A stretch of 64,000 nt of DNA from Pseudomonadota bacterium (lineage in GTDB: Bacteria > Pseudomonadota > Gammaproteobacteria > Pseudomonadales > Pseudohongiellaceae), in contig JAQBSZ010000021.1 of the NCBI GenBank assembly GCA_027623555.1, positions 1-64,000 of the forward strand. Direction: 5' to 3'. The translations under genes were made by a program, and so were the position numbers. Below the pieces are notes generated by a model that saw only the letters and a program-made list of their open reading frames with translations, was not told where the DNA came from and ran no database searches. Below, piece after piece: positions 33,338-41,998 of this stretch (position 1 is the first letter of the stretch; the number at the start of each line of letters is the position of its first letter).

Positions 33338-33506
33338 GTACTATTTGCCTGATTTATTTCAAGAAATTCCGGTATCTTGCCGCTAAAAGTAGGGAACTTG
33401 CAGGGATCTTGTCGAAAAAAAAATCTATTAAATTTAACAAATACAGACTAATACCACTGGTATTTAATGTGTTTTGTTAAGATTTAATTGAACGAAGAGA
33501 GAAAAA

Positions 33507-33898
33507 GGCGAGTCAGCCTGTAAGCCGGGTTCTGTCGAGGACAATTATTCATCTGCAACCTGTGTCACCACAGGCTTGTAGCGGCCTACCCGAATCCAAT
33601 GCGAGCAACACTGAAGGATTCCTATTTGGCCTTGCTCCGGGTGGGGTTTGCCGTGCCACGAGCTGTTACCAGTCGCGCGGTGCGCTCTTACCGCACCATT
33701 TCACCCTTACCTCGGGTCAAAATCGGAGATTTTGCTACAAGGCGGTATATTTTCTGTTGCACTGCCGTAGGTTCACACCTCCCAGGCGTTACCTGGCACC
33801 CTGCTCTTTGGAGCCCGGACTTTCCTCTATTTGTTCCTCGTAGATCGCCAGGCGATAAACAAAGAGTGGTAAATAGCAATTGTCCAGCTGACTCGCGG
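33507..33898 (-). ncRNA. rnpB: RNase P RNA, bacterial class A
   Basis: This is the catalytic RNA that trims the 5' leader of precursor tRNAs. On the minus strand the conserved 5' core GAGGAAAGTCCGGGCTCC and the following AGGGTGCCAGGTAACGCC are clear. Next come GGTAAGGGTGAAA, GGTGCGGTAAGAGCGCACCG and CCCGGAGCAAGGCCAAATAG, ending with CGACAGAACCCGGCTTA. Helix P1 forms between GCGAGTCAGC at the 5' end (33896-33887) and GCTGACTCGC at the 3' end (33517-33508). A T-rich stretch follows, suitable for termination. The length of about 392 nt is normal. Ends are set from P1 and may be off by a few bases. Confidence 0.96.
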
Positions 33899-38983: not shown

Positions 38984-39616
38984 CTATACCATTTCTTTTT
39001 CTAACTCGGACAGACTCGCCCTTACCGAATCCCTCTCGAACAATCGATCTCTATAGTCCAATAGAGGTTTAGTGGTTTTATTCTTTGGCAACTCAATGCC
39101 CATAATCGGTAATCGCCACAATATTGGCGTAACACAACAGTCAACTATTGTGAATTCATCACTCATAAAATAAGGTTTCTCACCGAAAATAGGAGCAATG
39201 GAAATTAGACTTTCTCGCAATTCCTTGCGCATCTTCTCTATCTGCGACGGGGTTCCCGATCCAGCCATTATTGGATCGACCAGTTTACACCAGTCATTCT
39301 TAATACGATAAATCCAGAGTCGGCTTTGTGCTCTGGCTACCGGATAGACTGGAAACAAAGGAGGATGGGGGAATCGCTCATCCAGATACTCCATCATGAT
39401 GTCCGCTTCATAAAGAACCAGGTCACGATCTACCAGAGTTGGAAGCGTGTTGTAGGGATTTAGAGACGCCAGGTCTTCTGGTTTGCTATCAAGGTCAACA
39501 TCGATTGTCTCGACAGTTACTCCTTTCTCAGCCAGAACGATTCGTACTCGATGGCTATAATGGCTCGTTCCGTCTGAATAAAACGTCATGGAAGATCTTT
39601 TAGCGACCACACCCAT
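38984..39616 (-). CDS. sspA: Stringent starvation protein A (SspA)
   Basis: SspA is a glutathione-transferase-fold protein that binds RNA polymerase and affects stress and stationary-phase transcription. The 210 residues begin MGVVAKRSSMTFYSDG, matching the family, followed by the thioredoxin-like N-domain (RVRIVLAEKGV, NTLPTLVDRDL) and the helical C-domain. The ATG has a clear AAGGA upstream. The palindromic element at 39669-39930 ends only about 50 bp upstream, so the sspA promoter region may have been altered by that insertion. Confidence 0.95.
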   Translation of the reverse strand: MGVVAKRSSMTFYSDGTSHYSHRVRIVLAEKGVTVETIDVDLDSKPEDLASLNPYNTLPTLVDRDLVLYEADIMMEYLDERFPHPPLFPVYPVARAQSRLWIYRIKNDWCKLVDPIMAGSGTPSQIEKMRKELRESLISIAPIFGEKPYFMSDEFTIVDCCVTPILWRLPIMGIELPKNKTTKPLLDYRDRLFERDSVRASLSELEKEMV

Positions 39617-39668
39617 AGTTTTTCCTTTATTCCTGCTTGGTTATTTGATGTCTGTCCAGTGTCGTTCT

Positions 39669-39930
39669 AGGGAGCCTCTGAACAAGTATATGGCCGCTCT
39701 GCGGGAGTCTGTCGCGCTTTGCCGCTAGGCGACGTGCGCAGGCAATGGCAGTCGTCCTTGGCAAGCGCGTCAACGCCGCGGCGGAGCGCGACAGGCCCCA
39801 CCCGAAGGGGCTTACAGCCAATCCCGCTCTCTACGTTGCACTGGCTTGAAAGGTCGGCCATCCTGCGTGCGCCTTGAGAGCGAAATTGGCTGTAAGCCAG
39901 AGCGGTCATATACTTGTTCAGAGGCTCCCT
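39669..39930. mobile_element. MITE-like palindromic element between sspA and the cytochrome b/c1 gene
   Basis: A 262-bp non-coding element is bounded by 33-bp inverted repeats (39669-39701 and 39898-39930) that differ at one base. Inside are two further inverted pairs: 39709-39725 with 39778-39794 (17 bp, 2 mismatches) and 39811-39831 with 39876-39896 (21 bp, 2 mismatches). Each encloses an 86-bp hairpin. The interior is visibly GC-rich. Flanks read CTAG at the left and CTAA at the right, compatible with a YTAR-type duplication as made by IS5-family transposases. No transposase is present. The IS5 link is inference. Confidence 0.75.
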
Positions 39931-41998
39931 AATGATAGTCTTTCGCGAATTCACGGCCCATAAGCGCTGCGAGAATATAGAGCACGCCAAGAAAGGCCAA
40001 GACCCAGATACCGATCGTTTGCCGGCGGTCGCGAATGGGTTCGCCGATGTAGTAGAGAAAATTAGCCACATCAGCAACAGCGGCATCAAATTCTTCTGCG
40101 CCCATGGAACCGGTGCCTGCCGTATGATGTAACTCACACTGGGCTGGGTCGCCGCTACCATGATCGTCGCAGGTAACATCTCCCTGCAGCTCATGCAAAA
40201 CATTAGGCATCGCAACGTTTGGGAAGATCTTGTTATTGGCTCCGAATGGTCGGCTTGAGTCGTTGTAGAACGATTTGAGATAGGAATATAGCCAATCCGC
40301 ACTATGCACCCTGCCGGCGAGCGTCAGATCTGGAGGTGCTGCGCTGAAATACTGCTCTGCCCTGTCTTTCGTTAATGATGTCTCTATCAGGTCGCCAATT
40401 AGTGATCCATCGAAAATAAGATTATCGATAACGAGTTCATGAGGAATCTCGAGGTCATCGGCAGTTCGCTCATAACGGGCATATCCCAAAGCATGGCAGC
40501 TCACGCAGTAGTTCATATAGTACTTGAAACCCCGTTGCAAAGAATCTTTATCATCAAAATCTGTCTCAACATGCTCGAGATCGAGATTTCCAGCAGACGC
40601 CGCTGTTGCACTTGAAGATGCCAACATCAAAGGCAACACGACCAACAAGATCAACAAAACGATGCTGCCAAGCAATTGAGGAATGCTGATCCAGCGACCA
40701 GTGACACGCTCCGGTGGCTGAGTTGTCTTCTCGGCACGGGTATACCAGGGCATCGCGATGAAATAGGCGAAGTAGATGAAGGTCGTGATCTGGGCTAACA
40801 GTATCTTGGCAGGAGTTGGCGCCTGAGCTCCCAGGACTCCGAGTATGATAAAGCTGACCACGAACATGAGCAGTGCAACACGGCTATACCAACCTTTGTA
40901 GCGCATGGACTTGACAGGACTCTTGTCCAGCCATGGCATAACAAACAGGATAGCAACAGCACCGAACATCACCAACATGCCCCAGAAATTGCCATCAATC
41001 CCAAACATAGTAATTGAGGCCGCACGCAGCATGGAATAGAACGGTGTGTAGTACCAGACCGGAGGAACATGCTCTGGGGTAAGCAGAGAGTTCGCTTCCT
41101 GAAAATTCGGAACCTCGAGGAAGTAGCCGCCCATTTCCGGCGCGAAGAAAACTATCGCACAGAACACAAACAGGAAGAGAATGACCCCTGGAAGGTCGTG
41201 ATAGATCGTGTAGTAGGGATGAAAGGGAACCCCGTCTACGGGGATGCCATCTGAGCCCTTATTCTTCTTGATCTCTATTCCATCGGGGTTATTGGAGCCG
41301 ACTTCATGTAGCGCCAGTATGTGCAATACCACCAGAGCGAGCAGCACGATGGGTAAGGCGACAACATGCAGCGCGAAGAACCGATTAAGTGTGGCGCCGG
41401 AGATCAAGTAATCGCCACGAATCCAAACCAGGAGATCTTCCCCAATGATTGGAATAGAACCGAACAGAGAGACAATTACGTTCGCTCCCCAATAAGACAA
41501 CTGGCCCCATGGCAGGATGTACCCCATGAAGCCTTCCGCCATCAGCACCAGAAAGATGGCCATGCCGATGACCCAGAGCAATTCTCGCGGGCGCTGGTAG
41601 GAGCCGTACATCAGCCCTCGAAACATGTGGATGTAGACTACAAAAAAGAACGCAGAAGCACCGGTGGAATGCAGGTACCTCAGCATCCAACCGTACTCCA
41701 CATCCCGCATGATGTATTCCACCGAAGCGAATGCCGCTTCGGCACTGGGGGTGTAGTTCATGGTCAACCAGATGCCGGTCAACAATTGGATAACCAGTAC
41801 CAGCAATGACAATATCCCAAAGAAATACCAGAAATTGAAATTCTTGGGCGCGTAATATTCGCTCATGTGTTTCTTCCAGGCTGCCACTATCGGCAATCTG
41901 GCGTCAGTCCAGTCACGAAGACCGATTAGTGCTGACATGAAGCGTCCGGGCCTTTGGGTTTCTTCTAAGCCACTCTCTGTGCCGCTCACGTCGCTCAT
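39929..41998 (-). CDS. petB-petC: Fused cytochrome b / cytochrome c1 of the bc1 complex
   Basis: One 689-residue frame joins both cytochromes of ubiquinol-cytochrome c reductase. Residues 1 to about 440 are cytochrome b: two histidine pairs (YLHSTGA ... YIHMF and ALHVV ... VLHIL) for two hemes, and the Qo motif PVWY. A hydrophobic stretch ending ATAASA (about 445-469) looks like a former c1 signal peptide. Cytochrome c1 follows from about residue 470, with heme site CVSCH (498-502), the likely axial Met in NVAMPN (597) and a C-terminal membrane anchor. A comparable fusion (fbcH) in Bradyrhizobium is cut after translation. The start overlaps petA by 4 nt (ATGA). Confidence 0.94.
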   Translation of the reverse strand: MSDVSGTESGLEETQRPGRFMSALIGLRDWTDARLPIVAAWKKHMSEYYAPKNFNFWYFFGILSLLVLVIQLLTGIWLTMNYTPSAEAAFASVEYIMRDVEYGWMLRYLHSTGASAFFFVVYIHMFRGLMYGSYQRPRELLWVIGMAIFLVLMAEGFMGYILPWGQLSYWGANVIVSLFGSIPIIGEDLLVWIRGDYLISGATLNRFFALHVVALPIVLLALVVLHILALHEVGSNNPDGIEIKKNKGSDGIPVDGVPFHPYYTIYHDLPGVILFLFVFCAIVFFAPEMGGYFLEVPNFQEANSLLTPEHVPPVWYYTPFYSMLRAASITMFGIDGNFWGMLVMFGAVAILFVMPWLDKSPVKSMRYKGWYSRVALLMFVVSFIILGVLGAQAPTPAKILLAQITTFIYFAYFIAMPWYTRAEKTTQPPERVTGRWISIPQLLGSIVLLILLVVLPLMLASSSATAASAGNLDLEHVETDFDDKDSLQRGFKYYMNYCVSCHALGYARYERTADDLEIPHELVIDNLIFDGSLIGDLIETSLTKDRAEQYFSAAPPDLTLAGRVHSADWLYSYLKSFYNDSSRPFGANNKIFPNVAMPNVLHELQGDVTCDDHGSGDPAQCELHHTAGTGSMGAEEFDAAVADVANFLYYIGEPIRDRRQTIGIWVLAFLGVLYILAALMGREFAKDYH

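Follow-up and report, generated by a model that had tools for sequence, protein, structure and literature searches.

Directly at the stop codon of petC in a Pseudohongiellaceae genome, between two codirectional genes, lies a short and strongly palindromic sequence, which raises the question of how it came to this site and whether its fold is a by-product of its origin or is kept by selection. We analyzed it within a stretch of 64,000 nucleotides, hereafter the window, belonging to a 4.5-Mb draft assembly (G000). A preliminary description had seen here a MITE-like element with 33-bp terminal repeats (one mismatch) and two internal hairpins of exactly 86 bp, and had suggested mobilisation by an IS5-type transposase encoded elsewhere. 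Because the flanks are of IS5 type, they were set apart and the element was taken as 39671-39928 (258 bp); its boundary reads CTAG followed by GGAGCC on the left and GGCTCC followed by CTAA on the right. The features of the locus are the following.

38984-39616, - strand: open reading frame of 210 aa that we take to be an SspA-like gene, located downstream of the element when the gene strand is read
39667-39670, no strand: left flanking 4-mer CTAG on the target-site side (from the sequence, and from YTAR-like flanks at other copies)
39671-39701, no strand: left terminal inverted repeat, GGAGCCTCTGAACAAG... (repeat detection)
39703-39799, + strand: hairpin 1 helix (fold boundaries and covariation)
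39709-39794, + strand: 86-bp arm pair of hairpin 1, with the conserved motif at 39712-39791 (fold and model R1)
39801-39809, no strand: tiny central hairpin, CCC...GGG, between both arms (fold; CCC/GGG recurs in the alignment)
39811-39896, - strand: hairpin 2, 86 bp (fold; model R1 on the opposite strand)
39818-39889, - strand: motif of hairpin 2 (R1 34.6 bits, E 2.5e-6)
39898-39928, no strand: right terminal inverted repeat (repeat detection)
39929-39932, no strand: right flanking 4-mer CTAA, which on the - strand gives petBC its TAG stop codon
39929-41998, - strand: neighbour gene, an open reading frame of 689 aa that ends at the element, presumably a fused cytochrome b/c1 (petBC)

The terminal repeats, measured at 39668-39701 and 39898-39931, are 34 nt long and 97% complementary with one mismatch, much as initially claimed. 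When folded as RNA, the region 39660-39940 reaches -187.7 kcal/mol, compared to a mean of -108.2 (sd 5.7) for 200 shuffles, none of which was as low (z -14.0). The predicted fold has a closing stem, two long hairpins that coincide exactly with the 86-bp hairpins described earlier, and the tiny central hairpin; the proposed three-way junction with two equal arms thus stands, with the correction that it carries a small fourth arm (39801-39809). The GC content of the element, 0.623, is higher than that of its 500-bp flanks (0.454 and 0.504) and of the window (0.480), in agreement with the GC-rich interior first noted. A search of Rfam 15 found no family at the gathering score, the best sub-threshold hit being a miRNA hairpin model with 30.2 bits versus 90.

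Two further observations concern the window itself. Cytochrome b and c1 are seemingly fused in one reading frame of 689 aa (39929-41998), and an RNase P RNA of bacterial class A is located at 33505-33895 on the - strand.

Insertion at the petBC stop codon and further copies

The SspA-like gene has a match in 33 of the 37 genomes of the genus (own genome counted). Among the 32 relatives with such a match we examined 29 orthologous petC-sspA junctions, 28 of them with a readable upstream gene. The element is absent from all 28, where 53-113 nt separate the upstream gene from the start of the sspA motif, and the copy in the window is therefore a lineage-specific insertion; the same sequence at orthologous loci, which would have indicated a native intergenic region, was not found at any of these junctions. 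The end of the upstream gene, KDYH before the stop or similar, is also found in relatives; its last nucleotides are YTAR (CTAG, CTAA, TTAG or TTAA) in 20 of the 28, and a TGA stop is present in 8. YTAR is the target of IS5-type elements, and the insertion would have taken place where the last codon and the stop codon of petBC together make up such a tetranucleotide. Short, without a gene, bounded by terminal inverted repeats and present in many copies, the element is a true, mobile MITE and not native intergenic sequence.

In the own genome, a blast search with the element gave 87 matches, and a 13-base end pattern was found at 94 sites versus 3 for the reversed control. The 40 of 90 first-look candidates scored represent 40 places, in line with the expectation of multiple copies of about 260 bp with conserved arms; several are at contig ends, so that a broken copy may in some cases be represented by its two halves. 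Contigs of this assembly often end inside the element (e.g. C1, C9, C12, C29, C59, C65), probably owing to assembly breaks at the hairpin, which makes copy number hard to count in such drafts. Beyond the own genome, 12 of 57 relatives have a match, some of them to only part of the hairpins. Plasmid searches with the window element and with a Marinobacter element gave no match, and in the viral contigs searched 0 and 1 stretch matched.

Flanking 4-mers are identical in 16 of the 42 complete elements of the own genome, G025 and G012, and at least one flank is YTAR in 35 of them. In the 21 elements with a left 4-mer that differs from its own reverse complement, direct repeats were counted 6 times and inverted ones once. 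The copies of G025 are near-identical and still include some with mismatched flanks, which weighs against a clean duplication. Judging from these flanks, a 4-bp target duplication appears to be favoured, but it is far from clean.

Shorter forms accompany the complete ones. Eight of the 42 complete Pseudohongiella elements have a single hairpin and measure 162-179 bp (L014, L023, L024, L029, L034, L038, L109, L115), while minimal palindromes of approximately 32-53 bp consist of the two ends only (L059, L064, L073 and L076 in the own genome, L138 1407-1459, L156 1467-1513), some of them flanked by identical 4-mers on both sides. Partnerless single ends are common. In G179, a single contig, 8 of the 14 end-pattern sites belong to four complete elements, and five of the six single ends read CTAG (once CGAG), the same 14 end bases, and CTAG (L365-L368, L375). 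Since CTAA lies inside the element end, just past those 14 bases, these footprints look like nearly precise deletions between short repeats, as palindromic insertions are known to undergo.

Two segments were rejected as ISs: a 612-bp one of the own genome, bounded by terminal repeats and considered as a small IS (L061 7467-8087), holds a native-looking, presumably folA-like gene between two end remnants, and a 1.47-kb one (L087 2660-4135) holds what we take to be a permease-like gene. In both cases end remnants lie right at the stop codons of the genes on either side.

Covariation and strand sense of the hairpin core

The pattern scan yielded 45 paired segments, 23 of which are 235-345 bp long and free of N; the others comprise single-hairpin and mini forms, one segment containing N, and L120 and L189, which are chance pairs. 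An initial alignment of 27 elements combined 19 of these 23 (minus L129, L144, L167 and L177) with the window copy, five other own-genome copies and two of G012. Alignment A1 comprises 17 elements from several genera, namely 12 scan segments, the window, L021, L025, L114 and L116, and leaves out elements with inserts (L135, L185), members of divergent subfamilies (L143, L170, L179, L181) and near-duplicates (L013, L018, L020, L195). Its consensus fold has 93 pairs, 70 of them changed on both sides, and 91.5% of its cells are paired. Sliding the partners by 1-3 columns lowers this share to 34.9-41.1%, and none of 500 shuffles reached 91.5%. The stem sequence varies while complementarity is kept, and the hairpin tips retain motifs such as AAGGCG...GCAG.AATGG...CAAG...CAACGC, with conserved unpaired A bases in AAGGC and CAACGC.

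A covariance model of hairpin 1 (R1, with rough E-values) gave 89.6 bits on hairpin 1 of the window, whose copy is among the 17 building sequences. On the opposite strand, R1 detects hairpin 2 of the window as well, indicating that hairpins 1 and 2 are inverted, paralogous versions of a single motif. We collected a second alignment (A5) from 38 of the 69 model-positive loci besides the window's; two of these repeat places under other ids, leaving 36 distinct ones, and the 59 hairpins that R1 matches in them include 56 distinct sequences. A second hairpin is present in 20 of the 36 distinct places and is always on the opposite strand; the element is therefore a dyad in which the first hairpin is in motif sense from either side. 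Among the 56 distinct hairpins, 26 of 27 pairs covary and 95.4% of cells are paired, versus 33.9-43.5% when slid, although A5 leans to structure because it was selected and aligned by R1; in both covariation tests the sequence counts are not independent events. The equal arms had been ascribed to selection on structure or to an internal duplication, and both ideas are supported: the hairpins are paralogs, and the fold covaries across genera. These alignments strongly suggest that the core is conserved by shape.

Within the order, 45 of 194 genomes from 33 of 96 genera have an R1 match, as have 61 of 398 sampled Pseudomonadota genomes (42 of 213 genera), the window's genome being included in both counts. 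The core also reaches plasmids, as seen from a match of 60 bits between two metabolic genes on a plasmid of a Pseudomonas aeruginosa blood isolate (L379 2545-2622). A divergent subfamily in Wenzhouxiangella and Sulfuricellaceae records (L143, L179, L181) has the same ends and two hairpins with other tips; R1 detects L181 and misses L143 and L179.

If a single strand is selected, it should tolerate G-T (G-U) pairs but not A-C pairs, and on that strand only. With the A1 arms aligned by a score blind to the GT/AC difference, three segments of hairpin 1 had + strand GT:AC ratios of 34:6, 12:1 and 17:1, and the closing stem had 17:12. In hairpin 2 the outer stem gave 28:9 on the - (motif-sense) strand, while its inner stem tended the other way, with 7:16 on the motif-sense strand (p 0.09). 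Counted by column, the ratio was 60:11 in hairpin 1, 27:28 in hairpin 2 and 18:14 in the closing stem. These ratios agree with selection acting on hairpin 1 as a motif-sense single strand; for hairpin 2 the agreement is less firm. The selected strand would more likely be RNA than single-stranded DNA, because wobble pairs cost little in RNA.

Terminal ends, IS5-type transposases and known elements

The element has the ends GGAGCCTCTGA, and since its outer 16-20 bp resemble the ends of IS5-group ISs, an IS5-type transposase acting in trans would be its most likely mover. Compared by eye, no more than 15 of 18 bases are shared between the window's own end and the IS ends. On a Marinobacter plasmid, an annotated IS5-family transposase (P0001) lies between TTAG followed by GGAGACTCTGAATAAGTC and GGAAGGTCTGAATAACTG followed by TTAG; its homologs occur in 24 of the 194 genomes of the order, and at some of 30 IS5 loci a script found ends GGARNCTCTGA with identical flanks. 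An IS5 copy in G224 that has two in-frame stops carries one end, GGAGCCTCTGAATAATTC, identical at 18 of 18 bases to the ends of a MITE there, an agreement that covers one end of a degenerate IS copy in that genome and not the window's own end.

A full IS with matching ends in the own genome, which the preliminary description had named as a supporting finding, was not found in the draft assembly: there is no P0001 homolog at 1e-40, and none of four PF01609 loci has such ends at one mismatch. We therefore infer the identity of the moving transposase. PF01609 loci gave no partner IS in four relatives carrying copies (0/4), an IS701-type transposase (PF13546) was rejected as partner (0/5 genomes), and the IS5 type and the core do not co-occur beyond chance (6 shared genomes versus 5.6 expected). 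The suggestion of IS5-type mobilisation in trans is thus favoured by the similar ends and YTAR-type flanks of IS5-family ISs elsewhere, and weakened by the lack of a partner in the own genome.

A pattern scan of named genomes located the ends in many Gammaproteobacteria, among at least 80 loci; among the matches listed, some records are labelled Burkholderiales, Sulfuricellaceae and others, and some distant ones may be chance. Cultured hosts of the core include Marinobacter xestospongiae and Saccharospirillum impatiens, and such elements also occur in record OX638378.1 (uncultured Pseudohongiella). The elements around R1 matches are mostly 255-280 bp long and have clearly differing terminal repeats. 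Some ends are close to those of the window (GGAACCTCTGA and GGCAGCTCTGA), and others read TGTCCCTTAACATAAG, TGTGGTGTAACGAACT, TACCCTTTCAGGGTGA, GGYCTGTTGACGTTT, GGGGCGTTCCCAAC, GTGTAGTGTATTGAATAG or GAGCGTGTTATGCAC. A script run over 40 core loci found CTAG, CTAA or CAAG duplicated around the element in 11; the remaining loci had another duplication or none, or an inner stem was picked by the script, and two rows had no ends. In a later placement, ends could be positioned at 7 of 12 loci, the other 5 being cut by contig ends. In three elements with other ends (L288, L302, L322), the fold is again made up of two hairpins and the stem that closes them.

On a plasmid of Pseudomonas avellanae, a complete IS of approximately 0.85 kb is bounded by one of these end types, GGTCTGTTCCCGTTTC, and flanked by CTAG at either end; a relative in Aeromonas caviae has the end GGGCTGTTGACGTTT. 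The MITE L288 and the Pseudomonas IS (L380) share 17 and 16 identical bases at the two ends, by eye. The Pseudomonas transposase is 76% identical to the Aeromonas one, which is of type IS5_3, while that of Marinobacter is of type IS5_4; the Aeromonas and Marinobacter proteins are 22% identical over 156 residues. Two end types of core elements therefore go with two IS5-family subgroups; an IS was identified for these two, and for most others none. Plasmid searches with two other end types gave no match in one case, and matches in Streptomyces or Sinorhizobium in the other. In the four IS loci examined (L234, L244, L380, L382), R1 has no match; since the core is absent there and is found under several ends, it does not derive from those ISs as a remnant and belongs to no single end type. 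The core is shared between different end types, and there are good grounds in the sequences to suggest that it has been exchanged between them.

Several known elements resemble this MITE in part. MITEPsy1 of Pseudomonas syringae, observed to transpose, also has IS5-like ends (GGAAGGTCTGAAAAAGCC), a 4-nt duplication of CTAG or YTAA and no gene; it differs in being 100 nt long, with six copies in the studied strain, and the available part of its report, on whose description the comparison is based, does not mention a two-hairpin core (PMC3189936). IS5-family ISs of types IS5_4 (NF033581) and IS5_3 (NF033580) have similar or matching ends and YTAR-type flanks, but encode a transposase and, at the four loci examined, have no hairpin core. 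TIMEs, which are Tn3-derived miniature elements, are mostly 262 bp long with a size that is constant despite sequence change, and have short conserved core stretches and predicted stem-loops; in contrast to the window element, their ends are of Tn3 type and their duplications 5-6 bp, according to the portion of the source at hand (PMC4133298). The window's ends are likewise unlike the Tn3-type GGGG-TGTAAGCC ends of MITEPsy2, as given in the accessible text (PMC3189936), and a TIME identity was rejected for lack of Tn3-type ends. R1 found no match in three plasmid loci with TIME-related ends (L383-L385), one of which holds a 228-bp MITEPsy2-like element; a TIME was confirmed in none of them. 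REP/BIME hairpins and integron attC sites would be comparable in mode of action, with a folded single strand, conserved bulges and variable stem sequence; to our knowledge, they differ in having no 4-bp flanking duplications. The accessible parts of a 2024 review of prokaryotic MITEs (PMC10969869) and of a Coxiella MITE paper (PMC5896051) report stable folding of MITE transcripts and describe no covarying core. Full-text searching of the open-licence literature revealed no description of the hairpin core, which we provisionally regard as novel.

Explanations for the conserved fold

We consider it probable that the element is a MITE moved by an IS5-type transposase and carrying a conserved folded core as constant cargo with exchangeable ends. 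Its interior is built from one bulged hairpin, present in inverted orientation on either side of a small central hairpin, the 5'-proximal copy on each strand being in motif sense. Since MITEs of several end types contain it, the core behaves as structured cargo, whose ends may have been swapped to suit different IS5-family transposases. The fold, selected as a single strand, would help the element to persist or spread in either orientation. More tentatively, and with some doubt on our part, the core could be a distinct and widespread selfish structured nucleic acid, a bulged-hairpin dyad with a working hairpin at the 5' side of each strand that wears the ends of its host's IS5-type transposons, such that the ends are interchangeable and the fold is the element.

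Three other explanations were weighed against exchangeable ends around a selected core. An ordinary IS5-type MITE, that is, an internally deleted IS whose interior folds by chance and whose hairpins are not selected, would account for the terminal repeats, YTAR-like flanks and multi-copy state usual for such elements, and MITEPsy1 has similar ends and target as far as its available description goes (PMC3189936). Given the covariation in A1 and A5, the presence of the same core under different ends and the four IS loci without it, we regard this as very improbable. Long palindromes are prone to template switching and conversion, and copying of this kind within the palindrome might keep the arms complementary with the fold unused. 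The terminal repeats indeed covary as well, in 17 of 29 closing pairs and without wobble bias; palindromic remnants of 32-53 bp exist; and in the closing stem of resident copies compensated changes make up 9 of 30 changed cells in the own genome and 5 of 13 in G025. Copying should act on the hairpins too, yet there the 12 resident copies of the own genome have compensated changes in 0/31 and 0/46 changed cells, and those of G025 in 0/23 and 0/1, an absence that counts against a selected fold as well. Copying should also erase the unpaired A bases that persist in AAGGC and CAACGC, and the wobble biases of hairpin 1 and of the hairpin 2 outer stem, which are opposite, speak against it too; we regard it as unlikely.

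The fold could alternatively serve the host at this site, as a 3'-UTR RNA structure in the petABC-sspAB transcript controlling stability, termination or read-through. The element does lie between codirectional genes, right at a stop codon, and codirectional neighbours are found for 22 of 34 classifiable Pseudohongiella copies (6 of 40 being undecided). Resident copies change at similar rates in paired (0.069) and unpaired (0.064) positions, but columns conserved across genera changed less than variable ones (11/474 versus 78/1122), which contradicts purely neutral decay for the conserved columns, and changed hairpin-1 pairs are GT in 19 cases versus AC in 5. As this variation may partly predate the spread of the copies, host-level and element-level selection are not separable from it. 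Yet the site is empty in all 28 readable relatives, codirectional neighbours are usual in the window (45/55), and outside Pseudohongiella such a placement applies to just 5 of the 12 copies that could be classified (9 of 21 undecided). The half that meets the upstream gene has no firm orientation either (16 versus 8), so that the orientation of copies relative to neighbouring genes gives no firm signal, and a host role at the petC-sspA junction seems to us quite unlikely.

MITEs are commonly regarded as transposons that have shrunk, and their folding as a by-product. For the core carried between exchangeable ends, the stem sequence appears to be free and the fold fixed, and the same fold is reused between the ends of different transposases. 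If this is true, some bacterial MITEs would be structured elements in their own right, and the role of a hairpin inside a transposon, be it in transposition, in replication or in sparing the host transcript, becomes testable.
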